Positions 37,982 through 44,848 of a stretch of DNA of 45,880 nucleotides are shown here, one piece after another; the first letter of the stretch is position 1; every line of letters starts with the position of its first letter. The stretch comes from an uncultured Burkholderiales bacterium (GTDB taxonomy: Bacteria; Pseudomonadota; Gammaproteobacteria; Burkholderiales; Thiobacillaceae), in assembly GCA_938038385.1 (NCBI GenBank), contig CALHRD010000019.1:1-45880 (forward strand), in the 5' to 3' direction. The translations under genes were made by a program, and so were the position numbers. The notes under the pieces are model-generated. The model was not told the origin of the DNA. It worked only from the letters and a program-made list of their open reading frames with translations, and did no database searches.

Positions 37982-38634
37982 ATTCCACTGGCCCCATCGA
38001 AGAAATACACACGGCGGCTTGCGCCGCCGTCGGGGAAAGCGTGAACTATACCCTCAACCAGGCTGCAGAAAAACCCGTGCCGATTGCAACCATCCAGACG
38101 ATAAGACTGACGGTACCGACGAGAAGTCCACAAAATGTGTGGATAACTTTGTGTACAACTCATGCCCATGATCGCCAACCCCCCGTATCTAAACCACTAA
38201 GTCCAGGACGGCTATTTTTTGAGCGATTGGATATGCATATATATTTCAGTCACTTACAAAAATTTCTTGCATCCTCAGATGGATAGCCATGGGATTTGAT
38301 TAAGCGCTGATGACTGTGGATATAACTTCCGCTTGACAGGCCCGTAAGCCCTGAGAAATCGGCCCGCCCAAGGGTATCCCCTGATGGGGTCGGCGCTGCG
38401 TCGGAAAAGCTCGCCCGCGGTGACAAGGGAATAGTCGATCAGCGTCTCGTCGGCTGGTAGTCATGACCTATGACGCCTGCGCGCACGCCTGTTATACCAT
38501 ACGAGGCCTTACCCGATCGTTTGCCGGCCTTGATCGCCCGCAGTCCCGTTTAGTCCGTCGGGATCTCGCCGATCCGGGGTCAACGGTAAGAACCCAGTCA
38601 TTGCAACCAAGTTTCATTACCAAGGAGATGACGC
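37982..38634. other. Long AT-richer intergenic region with DnaA-box-like sites
   Basis: 653 bases without a credible gene. Contents: a perfect DnaA box TGTGGATAA at 38138-38146 and a one-mismatch TGTGGATAT at 38315-38323, a weaker TGTGTACAA just after the first, and an AT-rich stretch at about 38210-38275 around ATATGCATATATAT. A TTGACA at 38333-38338 lacks a clear -10. The right end is the soxA leader. Base composition differs visibly from the GC-rich surroundings. Confidence 0.6.
38011..38030 (-). promoter_or_regulatory. Hairpin in the argD leader
   Basis: ACGGCGGC-TTGC-GCCGCCGT (plus strand) forms an 8-bp perfect stem with a 4-base loop, 30-50 bases upstream of the argD start. There is no T tract on either strand, so it is a stable leader hairpin or protein site, not a terminator. 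Confidence 0.5.
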
Positions 38635-39477
38635 ATGATCAAGAAAGCCCTGTGTGCGCTACCCCTCGCGCTGGCCCTGGCGGGCACCACCAGCGCCAGC
38701 ACCGGCAAGGCGCCCGAGGACATCCTCGACGAGCTGGCGGCCAAAACCAAATCCCAATACCTGACCCAGAGCCCGCAGAACCGCATGATGATGCCGGACA
38801 ACCCGGCCTATGAGGTGATCGAGGAGGGCGAGAAGCTTTGGAAGCAGAAGCGCGGTCCCAAGAACGCGACGCTGGAGCAGTGCGATTTCGGTAAGGGCCC
38901 CGGTGTGCTGAAGGGCGCCTATGTGGAAATGCCGCGCTACTTCGCCGACACCGGCAGGGTCATGGATCTGGAGTCCCGCCTGGTGCATTGCATGAAGACC
39001 CTCCAAGGCTACGGCAACGACGATCCGCAGGTCAAACAGCGCCACGGCAACAACACGGACGTGATCAAACTGATGAGCTACATCGCCTACCAGTCGAGTG
39101 GCATGGCCTGGAACCCGTCCATGAGTCATCCCATGGAGAAAGCGATGCGTGATGCCGGCGAGGTCCTGTTCTACCGCCGCTCCGGCACCATGGACTTCAA
39201 CTGTGCCACCTGCCACAAACAGACCGGCGGCCGCATCCGCGCCTCCTACCTGCCCAACGTCATGATCCCGGAGGAATGGACCAAGGCGATCTCCTGGCCC
39301 GCCCACCGCACCAGCCAGGAGAACGTGCGCAGCAGTCAGCATCGGGTGCTCGAGTGCCTGTGGCAGATGCGCTATCCCAACATCAAACCCGACTCCGACG
39401 TGCAGATCGCCTTCATCTCCTTCTGGACGGATGCCGCCCGCGGCCAGCCCGCCATCCTGCCCGACCTGAAGCGCTGA
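38635..39477 (+). CDS. soxA: L-cysteine S-thiosulfotransferase subunit SoxA
   Basis: Catalytic subunit of the periplasmic SoxAX cytochrome, which attaches thiosulfate to the SoxY carrier. The 280 residues have a signal peptide (LPLALALAGTTSA, to about residue 21). There is one haem site, Cys190-x-x-Cys193-His194 (NCATCHK). The N-terminal half keeps Cys83 and Cys119, probably a disulfide in place of the second haem. Cys241 (RVLECLWQMR) is the expected persulfide haem ligand. The ATG follows AAGGAGATGACGC. soxX follows; soxYZ and soxB are not in the window. Confidence 0.96.
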   Translation: MIKKALCALPLALALAGTTSASTGKAPEDILDELAAKTKSQYLTQSPQNRMMMPDNPAYEVIEEGEKLWKQKRGPKNATLEQCDFGKGPGVLKGAYVEMPRYFADTGRVMDLESRLVHCMKTLQGYGNDDPQVKQRHGNNTDVIKLMSYIAYQSSGMAWNPSMSHPMEKAMRDAGEVLFYRRSGTMDFNCATCHKQTGGRIRASYLPNVMIPEEWTKAISWPAHRTSQENVRSSQHRVLECLWQMRYPNIKPDSDVQIAFISFWTDAARGQPAILPDLKR

Positions 39478-39511
39478 CCAGCCGATGACGAACCTCGAGG
39501 AGAACCGATAC

Positions 39512-40231
39512 ATGTTCAAGAAGACCCCTATCGCGGCCGTGGTTGCGGCCACCGCCTCCCTGATGCTGCTCGCCGCCGGCTGCACGGCCACCGGTGGCGA
39601 GAAGCCGCAAGCGACCGCCGCCCCGGCAGCCAAAGCCGACTACACCAAGATGTCGCCGGTCGAACTGGCCGAATACCTGGTGTTCCAATCCGGCAGCTAC
39701 GACCTCGCCCAGCCCACCCAGGAGGGCACCACCGGCAAAGACCGCCTGGTCCAGGACGAAATCCAGAAGATCTGCTCGGAGGTCGCCCGCTCGGGCAAGG
39801 AGATCGACGACAAGACCGCCGAGAAGGTGACCGCCATGGCCATGGCCACGATCAAGTACCCGGAAGGCGGCATCAAGTTGGGCGATTGGAAAAAAGGCCG
39901 TGAAATCGCCTGGTCCGGCTTCGGTTTCCGCACCGCACACAACGTCGACGACCACAGTCGCGGCCCCGCCGGTGGCAACTGCTACAACTGCCACCAGCTC
40001 GCCACCGACCGCACCGGCGGCAACCTGGGTCCCAGCCTCACCGGTTACGGCAAGATCCGTGGCGCGAGTCCCGAGATGCTGAAGTACACCTACGAGGTGA
40101 TCTACAACGCCCACGCCTACTTCGCCTGCACCAACATGCCCCGGATCGGCGTGAAGGGTGTGTTGACCCAGCAGCAGATCGCCGACGTCATGGCCTACCT
40201 GTTCGACCCAGCCTCGCCAGTCAACAAGTAA
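39512..40231 (+). CDS. soxX: SoxX, mono-haem partner of SoxA, with lipobox
   Basis: Electron-accepting cytochrome c subunit of SoxAX. The 239 residues contain Cys157-x-x-Cys160-His161 (GNCYNCHQ) and a distal Met209 in ACTNMPRIG. The N-terminus reads as a lipoprotein signal (LMLLAAGC, Cys24), and about 100 residues precede the cytochrome core, longer than the compact SoxX of Paracoccus. If acylated, SoxAX would be tethered to a membrane. GAGGAG lies 10-15 bases before the ATG. A terminator follows. Confidence 0.94.
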   Translation: MFKKTPIAAVVAATASLMLLAAGCTATGGEKPQATAAPAAKADYTKMSPVELAEYLVFQSGSYDLAQPTQEGTTGKDRLVQDEIQKICSEVARSGKEIDDKTAEKVTAMAMATIKYPEGGIKLGDWKKGREIAWSGFGFRTAHNVDDHSRGPAGGNCYNCHQLATDRTGGNLGPSLTGYGKIRGASPEMLKYTYEVIYNAHAYFACTNMPRIGVKGVLTQQQIADVMAYLFDPASPVNK

Positions 40232-40250
40232 GCCTTCGCCGCGCAACCCG

Positions 40251-40290
40251 AACAGCCACCGGCAGCAGTGTCGCTGGCTGTTTTCTTTTC
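40251..40290 (+). terminator. Rho-independent terminator after soxX
   Basis: AACAGCCA (40251-40258) pairs with TGGCTGTT (40275-40282) across a 16-base loop and is followed by a T-rich run (TTTTCTTTTCC, sharing bases with the stem end). It lies 20 bases past the soxX stop and separates soxAX from the response regulator gene. Confidence 0.75.
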
Positions 40291-40384
40291 CGACCCATGC
40301 TGGGCCGGACTTTGTTGATGCTCTAAGTCCTGACGCCACTATAGCCGTTAATGCGGGCATCCAATGAGCTGAGGGCGAAAGGCT

Positions 40385-41968
40385 ATGCGCAACATGAAGG
40401 CGTTGGTCGTGGACGATTCCAAGGTGGGGCGTCTGACCATGCAGAGGAAACTGGAGGCGTTCGGCGTCGGCGTGGATCTGGCCGAGTCCGGGTTGGAGGC
40501 CCTGAACTATCTCGAGCGGCACCGGCCGGACGTGATCTTCATGGATCACATGATGCCGGACCTGGACGGCTTCGAAGCAACCCGGCACATCAAGGCGGTA
40601 CCCGCTACCCGCGACATCCCGGTCATCATCATCAGCGGTTCGGACGATGCGGCGTTTGTCCGCGACGCGCGCGCCATCGGGGCCCTCGACGCCATCGCAA
40701 AACCTCCCGCGAACGATGCGATCGAAAGGATCCTGGCCTCGCTGCCGCAGACCCTTGCCGCCACGACCACCGGGGAAGCAACGCCTACCGCTGCCCAGCC
40801 GGTGGTGCAGACAGGCGCGACAGCGCATCCCGATCAAACGGCGGTACAGGCCATGATCGAGTCCGGTATCCGGCGGGCCATCGAGAAGCTGCACGACGAC
40901 TGGCTGGACGAGTTCAGGACGAGGCTGGAGGCGGAATTCGAGAACGAGCGTCAGCTCCACAGGGCATGGAGCGACCGGCTGGAACAACGACTTGACCAAA
41001 CCATGGCCGGCCTGGCCGACGTCGCCCGGATCGCGGCGGAGTCCGAGGCGCTTCGGCAATCGTTGCAGGCCCTGGAAACACGGCTCCTTGCCCTGGAGTC
41101 CGCAGCGCAGGGCACGAGCACGCCGACCGAGGCATGGATCGAGGCCGTGGAGCGACGTGTCGGACCCAGCTTTGCCGCACTCAGGGAAGGGGCCGAGCGT
41201 CAGGCGGCCGGGTTGGACGCGTTGCGGCAGGAACTGCTGCACAGGCTGGATGACCTGCATGCCCTAAACGAGCCGGTCTTCCACGATCTGGCGGGCCGGA
41301 TCGAGGCCCTGTCCGAAGCGCTGCAAGCGCGGGTGTCTGCCTCGGAAACCCTGGCCGAGACGCACAGCCAGCGCCTGGGAACCATCGAGCAGCGGCTGGC
41401 GAACCTGGAAGCCGCAGGGCCACGCCCCGAGATGGATCAGGCGACGCTGCAGGCCTCCCTGGAGACCACCTTGAGCGGGCGGCTCAATGAGCTGATGCGG
41501 GATGAACTGGAGCCGATCGAGGCCGAACTGGATCGCCTGCGCGGCAAGCTGCAGGCACTCGGCCAGTCCCAGGACACACTGCAGTCGGCGCTTTCAGCCC
41601 AGAGCGAGGGGCTGGGCGCATTGCTGGAAGAGCGCTTCGGCCAGTTGTGGGCAGAGCGCGCTGCGGCGCTGCAATCGGCTATTCCGGGTCCAGAGAGCGC
41701 CCAGGCGATAGCGCCTGCCGAGCCGGACACACAGTCGGCTGTTGTCGAGACCGGGCCTGTGATGACAGAGCCTGCCGCCGACACCCAGCCGGCTGTGGCG
41801 ATGGATCAGGGCCTGGAGGCGCGGCTTGCCCAGCGCCTCACCGACGACTGGCACGTTCGCTGGCAGGCCGAGGTGGAGCGGCTGCAGCGCACAGTGAAGA
41901 CCCTCACCATGGCCACCGCCGCCGGAGGCGTCGCGCTGCTGGCCGCCCTGATCATCCTGGCGTTGTGA
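40385..41968 (+). CDS. Response regulator with long coiled coil and C-terminal membrane anchor
   Basis: A 527-residue protein. Residues 4-120 are a complete receiver domain: acidic pair Asp10/Asp11, phospho-acceptor Asp54 (IFMDHMMP), Ser84 and Lys106 (IAKPP). No DNA-binding or enzyme domain follows. A Pro/Ala/Thr linker leads to a long, predicted coiled coil (about 150-435) rich in Glu, Leu, Gln and Arg, then a second Pro/Ala linker and a short helix. The protein ends in a single hydrophobic helix, LTMATAAGGVALLAALIILAL (about 507-527), with no residues after it: a tail anchor. No cognate kinase is nearby. Function unknown. Confidence 0.87.
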   Translation: MRNMKALVVDDSKVGRLTMQRKLEAFGVGVDLAESGLEALNYLERHRPDVIFMDHMMPDLDGFEATRHIKAVPATRDIPVIIISGSDDAAFVRDARAIGALDAIAKPPANDAIERILASLPQTLAATTTGEATPTAAQPVVQTGATAHPDQTAVQAMIESGIRRAIEKLHDDWLDEFRTRLEAEFENERQLHRAWSDRLEQRLDQTMAGLADVARIAAESEALRQSLQALETRLLALESAAQGTSTPTEAWIEAVERRVGPSFAALREGAERQAAGLDALRQELLHRLDDLHALNEPVFHDLAGRIEALSEALQARVSASETLAETHSQRLGTIEQRLANLEAAGPRPEMDQATLQASLETTLSGRLNELMRDELEPIEAELDRLRGKLQALGQSQDTLQSALSAQSEGLGALLEERFGQLWAERAAALQSAIPGPESAQAIAPAEPDTQSAVVETGPVMTEPAADTQPAVAMDQGLEARLAQRLTDDWHVRWQAEVERLQRTVKTLTMATAAGGVALLAALIILAL

Positions 41969-42039
41969 CATCGCCGCCAGGGTAAGGCAGCCCGGTCATC
42001 CCTCGCCGCGCCCGGTTGCGGGCCCTGTCCGCCCCGGGC

Positions 42040-43368
42040 TCAGTGTCCCGGGTCGGGCACGAACTTGAGCACGTTGCCGTTGATGCAGTAGCGCTTGCCG
42101 GTGGGCGGCGGACCGTCGTCGAAGACGTGGCCCAGGTGGATGCCGGAGCTTGCGCTCCTCACTTCCACGCGCCGCATGCCGTGGCTCGTGTCCTCATGAT
42201 AGGTGAGCGCCCCCGGCAGGGGGTTGAAGAAACTCGGCCAACCGGTTCCGCTGTCGAATTTCGTGTCGCTGCGAAACAGCGGCGCGCCGGTGATGGGGTC
42301 GACGAAGGTGCCGGGGCGTTTCTCGTCCAGATGCGAGCCGGTGAACGGGCGCTCCGTGCCCGATTCGAAGGCGATCCTGCGCTGCTCGGGGGTGAGCAGC
42401 CGAAAGCCCAGCCACTTCCAGAAGCGGGTCTGGTCGCCGTTGTAGCCGGTGTAGCGGGAGACCTCGCGGCCGTTCTCGAACAGCACGATGGTGGGCGTGG
42501 CGAACAAGGGCTTCTCCAGTTGCCAGCCGGCGGGGGGATTGGGGTTCAGGGTGCGCACCACCGGCACCGGGGACTTCCACTGGTCCAGAACCTCGGCCTT
42601 GAACTGCTTGCAGAAGGCGCAGTCCTCGGCCTCGAACACCACGAGCTGCCGGTCATGCTGCAATGTCTTGGCGTCGAGCCGGGGCGCAGCCGGGGCAGCA
42701 GTCGCCGTCGACCTGGAACCGGGGTACTTGACCTTCGTGCCGCCCAGGCCGCAATAGCCGTCAGGGTTCTTCCGGAGATAGTCCTGGTGGTAGTCCTCGG
42801 CCGGGTAGTAGGCCCGGAGCGGGGCGATCTCGGTGGTGATGGGCCCATGGCCGGCCCGTCTCAGGGCCTCTTGATAGACATCGCGGGTGGCGCGCGCCAC
42901 CGCGGCCTGCGCCTCGTCGAGGTAGTAGATGGCGCTGCGGTAGTTGCTGCCGATGTCGTTGCCCTGGCGGTCGCCCTGGGTCGGGTCGTGGTTCTCCCAG
43001 AAGCCGATCAGCACCGCCTCGAGGGTGGTGCGGGTGGGGTCGAAGGTCACCTTCACCACCTCCGCGTGATTGCGCTTTTGGCTTCGGCCGGCGCGCAGAG
43101 CCCGCTCCTGGGCCAGAATCGCCGCATAGCTGCCGGCGACCTCGCCGTTGGCATAACCCGCTTCCACATCCAGCACACCGGGCAGTTCGGACATGCGCTT
43201 CTCCGCCCCCCAGAAGCAGCCCATGCCCAGGACGATGGTTTCGCGCTGCTGGCCGGCATCGAGGCTGACTACCTTGGCGGCGGCCGGATTTTCACGGGCA
43301 CAGGCGCTGACCATCAAGCCCAGGCCCAGGGTCAGGAGCAGGCGTTGCAATAGGCGGGGCGTGATCAT
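42040..43368 (-). CDS. Lipoprotein MsrA-thioredoxin-MsrB methionine sulfoxide reductase fusion
   Basis: Repairs both methionine sulfoxide stereoisomers outside the cytoplasm. The 442 residues run: lipoprotein signal (LMVSAC, Cys23); MsrA (about 44-210) with catalytic Cys51 in [10 protein letters not shown] and possible resolving Cys206; thioredoxin-like domain (about 230-322) with Cys250-Ala-Phe-Cys253; MsrB (about 325-442) with catalytic Cys428 in [12 protein letters not shown]. MsrB lacks the zinc CxxC pairs and has SGTGWPSF instead of SGCGWPSF. The MsrA loop before HAEVV (residues 78-100) is aberrant. Reductant would come from the internal thioredoxin domain. The start 43368 is the only one giving a signal peptide. 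Confidence 0.92.
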
Positions 43369-43507
43369 GATCTCACTCAAGGGGGGTGGCTCGACGGCAC
43401 ACTCGTGCGTCAATGAGACGTAGACAGGCCACCTCATGAACAAATTCCCGACCTTCGGGTTGCCTCCCCGAGGAGCGCGTGATCGATGCCGGGTCAGGGC
43501 AGCCGTG

Positions 43508-44848
43508 TCATGCCAGGTAGGTGTGGACGAGACCGATGACGGCACAGGCACCGATCACCCGCAGGATGTCCTGTTTGTATTTCCACAGGGCAAGAAAGGC
43601 GGCCACCGAAATCAGGGCATAGACCCACTCGAAGCGGCCCGTGAAGGGATCTGCCGCGCTGGCCTCTGGCCACAACACGTGCCAGCCGAAGAACAGTGCA
43701 AGGTTGAGGATCACCCCCACCACGGCGGCCGTGATGCCGGTCAGCGGCGCGGTGAACTTGAGGTCGCCATGCGTCGACTCGACCAGCGGGGCCCCGGCGA
43801 GGATGAACAGAAAGGAAGGTAGGAAGGTGAAGAAGGTCGCCACCCCGGCACCGGCGAGACCGGCCAGCACGAGTAGATCCGGCCCGAAGATCGCCTTGCT
43901 CCAGGCGCCTACGAAACCGACGAAGGCCACGACCATGATCAGCGGCCCCGGCGTCGTCTCGCCCAGGGCCAGACCGTCGATCATCTGCGGGCCGGTCAAC
44001 CAGCCGTAGGTCTCCACACCGCCCTGGTAGACATAAGGCAGCACTGCATAGGCGCCACCGAAGGTGACCAGGGCCGCCTTGGTGAAGAAGGCGCCCATGT
44101 CGCGCAGCACCGGGTCGGTGAGCGCGGCCATGGCCGCCGCCCACACCGCCAGGAACAGGACCAGCAGGGCTGCCAGGCGAGCCGGGCGGAAACGGGTATG
44201 CGGCGGACGCGGGGTGTCATCGTCGATCAGGGCCGGGCCGTAGTCCTTGTCTGCAGCACCATGGCCGCCGCCCACCTGGAACTTCTCGGGTAACAGGCGA
44301 CCGCCCACGTAGCCGAGCAGGCCGGCGCCCAGGACGATGTAGGGGAAGGGCACGTCGAAGGCGAAGATGGCAAGGAAGGCGGTGGCGGCCAGCGCCCACA
44401 GGACACGGTTCTTGAGCGCCCGGGTACCGATGCGCCAGGCGGCGAATACGACGATGGCCACCACGGCCGGCTTGATGCCGTTGAACACCCCCTGCACGAA
44501 GGTGACGTCGCCGAAGGCCAGGTAGACCCAAGTCAAGGCTGCCAGGATGAGGAACGAGGGCAGGACGAACAGCGTCCCGGCGACGATGCCACCCAGGCTG
44601 CGGTGCAGCAGCCAGCCGATGTAGATGGCCAACTGCTGGGCCTCGGGGCCGGGCAACAGCATGCAGTAATTGAGGGCGTGCAGGAAACGGCGCTCTGAGA
44701 TCCAGCGGCGCTTCTCCACCAGCTCCTGGTGCATCATCGCGATCTGGCCGGCCGGACCGCCGAAGCTGATGAAGCCGAGCTTGAGCCAATAGCGGAAGGT
44801 CTGCCAAAAGCCGGGGTGGGGCGGGCGGGTCGGGGTCGTGGTTTGCAT
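43508..44848 (-). CDS. chrA: Chromate transporter, CHR family
   Basis: A 446-residue inner-membrane protein with two homologous halves and about 10-12 hydrophobic segments. The N-terminal half has the CHR signature [22 protein letters not shown] and [18 protein letters not shown]; the second half repeats it as [19 protein letters not shown] and [17 protein letters not shown]. Long-chain CHR proteins export chromate; some carry sulfate or other anions. The start at 44848 is preferred over an upstream TTG. No chrB regulator is seen. Confidence 0.94.

Follow-up and report, generated by a model that had tools for sequence, protein, structure and literature searches.

The window (the whole stretch of 45,880 nucleotides that was analysed) encodes a response regulator whose architecture is real, constrained and recurrent, and is undescribed in the literature searched. 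The protein begins with a receiver domain, continues into a long helical region and ends in a hydrophobic helix that is predicted to anchor it by its tail. The best reading of this predicted anchor, taken with the kept phosphorylation residues, would be a phosphorylation-controlled membrane scaffold. As a tentative explanation with a substantial chance of being right, we propose a phosphorylatable receiver that a helical stalk holds at the inner membrane, where it acts by protein contacts. In the open-access literature, no title or abstract opening among the matches listed describes this membrane-anchored response regulator family; the subscription literature lies mostly outside that search.

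The proposed mechanism is as follows. The receiver would be a working phosphorylation switch, judging from the sequence, in which the catalytic residues are kept. The long helical stalk would carry the receiver, and the short C-terminal membrane helix would hold the protein at the cytoplasmic face of the inner membrane. A histidine kinase or a CheA-type kinase would phosphorylate the receiver at the membrane, where the kinases are. Phosphorylation would alter receiver-receiver or receiver-partner binding, and a partner would be recruited, released or clustered at the membrane. The stalk would give reach and the linkers freedom, and the "output" of the regulator would be its place at the membrane. 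Since there is no recognised DNA-binding or enzymatic part, action by protein contacts is most likely.

Domain layout and predicted structure

The features of the gene and its surroundings are listed in Table 1. The 527-residue protein matches the Pfam response regulator receiver family (Response_reg, PF00072) with 82.4 bits against a curated cut-off of 30.2, and no second Pfam family exceeds its curated cut-off. Among the best 25 of 91 NCBIfam matches, none besides the receiver is over its cut-off. Hydrophobicity is strongest over the last 19 residues (509-527), and each of the eight top 19-residue hydropathy windows starts at residues 502-509. Hydropathy stays at 0.45 or less from residue 120 up to the final 45 residues, which by hydropathy alone gives a single C-terminal helix. 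The AlphaFold2 model (21 sequences) has a receiver at residues 1-120 with ten-residue pLDDT means of 88-98, helices at 151-242, 248-343 and 352-432 with means of 53-74, and a final helix at 475-526 (means 55-79) that contains the hydrophobic segment. The linkers at 125-149 and 442-475 have pLDDT values below 50. The helical stalk of about 280 residues is rich in Ala, Glu and Arg, and the hydrophobic end segment is rich in Ala and Gly. A complete receiver joined to a C-terminal hydrophobic helix, with no recognised output domain, had been claimed from the sequence beforehand (the original prediction), and this layout is borne out by Pfam, the best 25 of 91 NCBIfam matches, hydropathy and AlphaFold2.

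Table 1. Positions in the window of the regulator gene, its predicted parts and the hairpin upstream of it.
Feature	Position	Strand	Basis or remark
Terminator-like hairpin with U-rich tail after soxX	40250..40288	+	-20.3 kcal/mol; z -1.9 to -2.1; 4/200 shuffles as good
Tail-anchored response regulator gene	40385..41968	+	ORF with exact coordinates; 527 aa plus stop
Receiver domain, residues 1-121	40385..40747	+	Pfam PF00072 at residues 7-114, E 3.4e-23; high pLDDT
D54, predicted phosphorylated aspartate (with D10, D11, S84, K106)	40544..40546	+	Pocket kept in 74/74 family receivers
A103, usual aromatic switch position, three before K106	40691..40693	+	Ala in 7/7 clade rows
Flexible linker, residues 122-150	40748..40834	+	pLDDT <50 at 125-149; K/R absent from 123-152
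Three long amphipathic helices, residues 151-432	40835..41680	+	Helix prediction of moderate to low confidence; periodicity 3.60
Second flexible linker, residues 433-474	41681..41806	+	pLDDT <50 at 442-475
Juxtamembrane helix, residues 475-508	41807..41908	+	AlphaFold2; partly conserved among orthologues
C-terminal membrane helix (predicted tail anchor), residues 509-527	41909..41965	+	Hydropathy 2.38; K/R bias; dN/dS

Relatives of solved structure match the receiver part by sequence; the best is PleD (E 3.9e-13), and CheY and Spo0F are among them. CheY and Spo0F are, as here, receivers with no DNA-binding or enzymatic domain, but they are soluble single domains, whereas here a stalk and an anchor come after the receiver. 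The window's own genome has 40 receiver matches. Thirty of these were fetched, and 28 have their C-terminus in view (L117 and L118 do not). Only this protein has a hydrophobic C-terminus among the 28, the next highest hydropathy being 1.19. Features of the PEP-CTERM/exosortase system were not seen by eye: the N-terminus is the receiver, and the hydrophobic end has no PEP motif. PEP-CTERM substrates have a signal peptide at the N-terminus and, at the C-terminus, a sorting signal that includes a PEP motif, according to the available part of PMC1569441.

The receiver family and its distribution

A scan of named genomes with an orthologue alignment gave 564 loci, and the best 80 were taken. Three architectures occur in these 80 loci: proteins with a C-terminal hydrophobic helix, proteins with a mid-protein helix and a further domain, and proteins without a membrane helix. 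The last are mainly from Nevskia and Solimonas, and a few unrelated long kinases are also among the loci. L095 and L096 were left out of the architecture reading; L078 (short, with an odd tail) and L154 look truncated or frameshifted and were counted as without a membrane helix. In seven tail-anchored relatives (L015, L016, L017, L018, L024, L048 and L050), no second Pfam domain is over its cut-off.

In a receiver tree of 80 rows and only 125 columns, in which long branches meet, the 74 family receivers separate from six other receivers of this genome with a support of 96/82. The family set consists of the 80 scan loci plus five (the window and four whole-genome loci), minus the rows that were dropped: L034, with DDA in place of DDS, L077, L085, L086 and L088-L094. 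The four architecture labels change 5 times on the tree, compared with 34.3 times in shuffles. Our protein falls in a clade with a support of 100/100 together with L010, L011, L012, L013, L015 and L016, all tail-anchored. The L016 protein is identical to that of G031, a genome in the same family as the window's; L095 corresponds to this G031 gene.

D10, D11, D54 and K106 are invariant in all 74 family receivers, and residue 84 is always S or T. The position of A103, which usually holds the aromatic switch residue, varies by branch. The 25 tail-anchored tree rows have F in 8, A in 7, I in 4, T in 3 and V in 3, and the seven Ala are this protein's clade (7/7). The 40 mid-membrane rows have V (29) or I (11), and the nine rows without a membrane helix have V (8) or F (1). 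Overall, the switch residue is aromatic in 9/74 family receivers and non-aromatic in 65/74. The six other receivers of this genome have Y (3), F (2) or W (1). The Ala in this clade makes output via the alpha4-beta5-alpha5 face uncertain.

The wider distribution was assessed with a receiver profile of 26 rows against 370 genomes of the class that are at least 90% complete. Scoring was limited to 12 candidates in each genome and to matches of E 1e-32 or better, so the class counts are lower bounds; some genomes contribute sequences to the profile itself, and some genes are counted under two handles (e.g., L064 and G555). Receiver matches were found in at least 55 of the 370 genomes, with at least 66 matches. 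All 66 were labelled by hydropathy: 27 tail-anchored, 22 mid-membrane, 10 receiver only, two cut by a contig or locus end, two without a membrane helix and two C-terminal receivers. The mid-membrane count is 22 instead of 23 because L182 (116.5 bits) is a receiver-RadC fusion and no membrane protein. The switch residue is Tyr or Phe in all 10 receiver-only proteins, none of which reaches 123 bits. Of the 50 matches that score at least 124 bits, 25 are tail-anchored, 21 have a mid-protein helix, two lack a helix and two are cut by a contig or locus end; this kind of receiver is thus associated with membrane anchoring. In the 27 tail-anchored rows of this search, the switch residue is F in 12, V in 7, I in 3, Y in 3, A in 1 and T in 1, so an aromatic residue is kept in 15 of them (12 Phe, 3 Tyr) and absent in 12.

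The pattern at the switch position bears on another view of the protein, as a phosphate sink or relay fixed in the membrane close to membrane kinases or arrays, where its receiver would take up or pass on phosphoryl groups without any output of its own. Such a role, which we consider unlikely, would be consistent with the Ala in all seven clade members beside kept catalytic residues and with the absence of a recognised output domain; intermediary receivers do not use the alpha4-beta5-alpha5 face, as described in the accessible part of PMC9981736. Against it, the tail-anchored relatives are mixed, and the relay receiver of CckA, in the same partial source, has Phe at the switch position, so relay receivers are not defined by a missing aromatic. 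A stalk of 280 residues would be superfluous for a sink, and no recurrent histidine phosphotransfer neighbour was noticed in the BLAST clusters, with one HPt-like ORF seen by eye near L019.

Tail-anchored members occur in at least 24 of the 370 class genomes, and either membrane form in at least 43. Response regulators fixed to the membrane by their C-terminus had been called rare in the original prediction, and these counts do not support that; the same architecture does recur in other genomes, both in congeners and across the class. Within the order to which the window belongs, occurrence is patchy, with 5 of 300 genomes matching at E 1e-25: two (G000 and G031, both of the same family) carry a member like this one, and three have ORFs of about 1500 residues that are of another kind. 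A query with the part that follows the receiver matches 5 of 101 relatives, the own genome among them, a count that is low because G031 is not among its matches. A further likeness is to the archaeal MetOD3 proteins, in which a receiver is also joined to a membrane-anchored part and which are uncharacterised (PMC5847659, in its available text). Compared by description, MetOD3 differs in that it is reported from one or two genera of methanogens and has very few members, and no long stalk is mentioned in that text.

A sister group (L057:5871-7208, L035:8001-9332 and others; 40 tree rows) has a receiver, a mid-protein membrane helix and a folded domain. It shares the receiver group and the membrane anchoring with our protein, but its chain runs past the membrane helix into the folded domain, and its switch residue is V or I in 40/40. 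The prediction for L057 (25 sequences) has the receiver, a long helix at residues 214-294 that contains the membrane segment, and an alpha/beta domain at 309-442 that is predicted well. Two Cys are invariant in 25 rows of this architecture and would suit a disulfide outside the cytoplasm; a WNxxAxxNxR motif is present in 18 of 23 rows labelled mid-membrane. The C-terminal domain is presumably periplasmic in this model, and signalling from the cytoplasm to the periplasm is possible in the sister group. An alignment of this domain to OmpA with hhalign gave E 0.0066 and a probability of 5.8% (control receiver against OmpA, E 0.37), and PF00691 had no match up to E 0.1 in L057 and L035. We do not claim an OmpA identity, and the likeness is only suggestive. 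A Foldseek search with the sister architecture had only receiver proteins among the 50 matches listed.

It is possible, if rather doubtful, that a group of gammaproteobacterial response regulators works at the inner membrane and not on DNA. Its members would sit on tail-anchored stalks, or their chain would pass through the membrane into a Cys-paired outside domain, which could let a kinase in the cytoplasm send signals out to the envelope. The aromatic switch is gone in the Ala clade and in the Val/Ile branch, which would hint at a different reading of the phosphate; other tail-anchored members keep the aromatic. Two-component signalling is mostly described as a membrane kinase with a cytoplasmic regulator, and membrane-fixed regulators that recur as widely as counted here would add a mode of action.

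The stalk and the predicted anchor

The region after the receiver had been described beforehand as a coiled coil of about 290 residues. A long amphipathic helical region is there, but a heptad repeat over the whole of it is not supported. The hydrophobic periodicity of residues 151-432 is 3.60 (power 21.9; 0/500 shuffles as high) and the power at 3.5 is only 1.3, so a classical coiled coil across the whole stalk finds no support in the periodicity. Windows starting at residues 179-207 peak at 3.48-3.52, and at most a local heptad stretch is possible there. In twelve relatives tested, the stalk periodicity peaks at 3.58 to 3.98, and that of L048 does not exceed its shuffles (94/500). The long amphipathic helices of the stalk may form a straight bundle, a right-handed coil or a folded-back arrangement.

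To our knowledge, FrzS has the nearest plan, and we know of no membrane helix in it. FrzS and AglZ of Myxococcus xanthus have an N-terminal receiver and a long helical region, as here; in FrzS the receiver, a coiled coil of 258 residues and a C-terminal tail are all required for localisation (PMC1974792, available portion). Our protein could organise polarity or motility as FrzS, AglZ or RomR does in Myxococcus, but with an additional membrane tail. The shared order of receiver and helical region fits this, as do the PilG/PilH- and CheY/CheB-like receivers of its own genome (labels by eye). We nevertheless think it improbable. Compared by description from the same portion of that source, the phosphorylated Asp is absent from FrzS, which retains the switch residue (Tyr102); this is the reverse of our protein, in which the Asp is kept, the switch residue is Ala and a C-terminal hydrophobic helix is present. 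The recurrent neighbours noticed in the clustering include no motility gene.

Selective constraint is uneven along the gene. In pairwise comparisons of this gene with two congeners, and of those two with each other, the receiver has dN/dS values of 0.13-0.21, the tail (residues 479-527) 0.16-0.31 and the helical region 0.49-0.64. The helices are 35-36% identical to those of L010 or L011, compared with 83% for the receiver. Thus, the switch and the anchor are kept and the stalk drifts, a pattern to be expected of a spacer stalk between a switch and an anchor that are both important. The same values weigh on the idea that the receiver is an accessory and the protein a membrane protein with a structural or stress role, similar to the tail-anchored ElaB type. 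ElaB is a tail-anchored stress protein (PMC6389858, available text), and the tail anchor and Ala-rich amphipathic helices of our protein resemble that type; with the receiver and tail the most constrained parts and the receiver pocket kept over many lineages, however, we give this idea little credence.

The number of K/R residues is higher before the hydrophobic segment than after it in 40 of 51 tail-anchored rows (some genes under two handles), equal in 11 and lower in none, as expected for an N-terminus-in orientation. From hydropathy and charge, we infer that the protein inserts in the membrane with its N-terminus in and its tail at the inner membrane. The hydrophobic end could instead lie outside the membrane as the oligomer core of a soluble protein, given that its membrane location is a prediction and the segment is Ala/Gly-rich, but the K/R pattern, the constrained tail and the mid-protein helix of similar hydropathy in related receivers make this very improbable. 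TssL, Flk, DjlC and ElaB have a single C-terminal membrane helix and a cytoplasmic main part, as predicted here (PMC6794478, PMC3426401 and PMC6389858, each in its accessible part). Synthetic tail-anchored proteins insert in Escherichia coli without a strict need for SecYEG or YidC (PMC6794478, same part), and TssL is inserted by YidC (PMC3426401, same part). The term "response regulator" is absent from the available text of two papers on tail-anchored proteins (PMC6794478 and PMC3087755).

Genomic neighbourhood and kinase leads

The gene starts 153 bases past the soxX stop, and the identities of SoxA and SoxX were confirmed by NCBIfam profiles. Orthologues in three congeneric genomes (L010, L011 and L012) occupy the same place, between soxX and msrAB. 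Equivalents of the hairpin in Table 1, with T-rich tails, are found in all three at the matching place. The hairpin is clear against shuffles in L011 (z -3.0) and L012 (z -3.1) and weaker in L010 (z -1.7, 14/200 shuffles as good), where the minimum is another pairing. A consensus scan of positions 38500-42100 found neither a terminator nor a promoter. Because soxX is followed by a terminator-like hairpin in each of the four congeneric genomes, membership in a soxAX operon was rejected and the link to soxAX is positional. The adjacency to soxAX that the original prediction had pointed out is therefore conserved in the genus, but a functional tie is not supported, the neighbours being others in the other lineages looked at. 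The gene is most likely a separate transcription unit.

The ORF at positions 42040-43551 on the minus strand is single and has the domain order MsrA-Trx-MsrB, with a thioredoxin-like middle (Pfam). The neisserial three-domain MsrA/MsrB protein has Trx first. Genes of the msrA type lie within two genes of a tail-anchored regulator in three lineages: the window (the ORF above), Hahella (L017, about 5.8-6.5 kb) and G652 (L204:7576-8211). This proximity may be a coincidence. That the protein regulates sulfur oxidation or methionine-sulfoxide repair via soxAX and msrAB is highly unlikely: its place between soxX and msrAB in four genomes and the msrA-type genes in Hahella and G652 would speak for it, but the hairpin after soxX, the opposite strand of msrAB, the different neighbours in other lineages and a count of 3/27 neighbourhood groups for msrA (like several other clusters, weak and noticed post hoc) speak against it.

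Genes in these neighbourhoods were called with a heuristic of length and GC3, and the target was not placed in L016, L059 and L205. Two gene-neighbourhood clusterings, the later one with 27 groups, gave no neighbour that recurs widely across lineages. Comparison of the neighbours in other genomes, suggested earlier as a check, thus yielded mainly lineage-specific synteny. The commonest neighbour cluster occurs in 5/27 groups and is represented by an apparent antisense ORF, and many of the clusters are antisense ORFs of high-GC DNA. By eye, the regulator gene comes right after secD and secF in 7/7 members of a Competibacteraceae clade (L050, L072-L074, L080, L082 and L083), rsmE and prmC-like genes are neighbours in f53, and dut-like genes are neighbours in f182 and f210.

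The search for the kinase, also proposed earlier, gave a lead in other genomes but none that stands out in the window's own. In G482 and G580 (2.0 and 1.5 Mb), a gene for a PhoR-like membrane kinase lies directly downstream of the tail-anchored gene. These kinases score 294 and 271 bits against TIGR02966, whose cut-off is 334, and exceed the cut-offs for HisKA and HATPase. G482 has 6 HisKA kinases and 11 receivers, and each of the other 5 kinases has a receiver within 1.4 kb; the same is true for the other 3 of 4 HisKA kinases in G580. In G656, of another family, the PhoR-like kinase gene adjoins another receiver gene, and no kinase is encoded next to the tail-anchored regulator. From this gene order, the PhoR-like kinase of G482 and G580 is the best candidate lead, although the regulators beside it are among the more distant homologues. 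The tail-anchored homologues of G482, G580 and G656 score 124.6, 119.0 and 115.3 bits against 169 for this protein and have Tyr at the switch position, so the lead may not carry over. The neighbouring kinase and regulator of G482 and G580 offer a concrete pair for in vitro work.

In the window's own genome, 5 of 26 HATPase places have no receiver within 3 kb. Fifteen of 16 HisKA places have one, and the exception (C7:8569) is RegB-like by eye; thus, no free kinase stands out in this assembly, which is 92% complete. The best match to the PhoR-like kinase, at C32, lies about 1 kb or less from an OmpR-like receiver gene and for that reason was rejected as a candidate.

Two other neighbours were seen. 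In G580, a receiver-RadC fusion (L198:8912-10114) lies directly upstream of the tail-anchored regulator and the PhoR-like kinase. In G449, an OmpA/MotB-like protein (L206:9624-10328; PF00691 26.9 bits, cut-off 27.2) directly follows the tail-anchored regulator.
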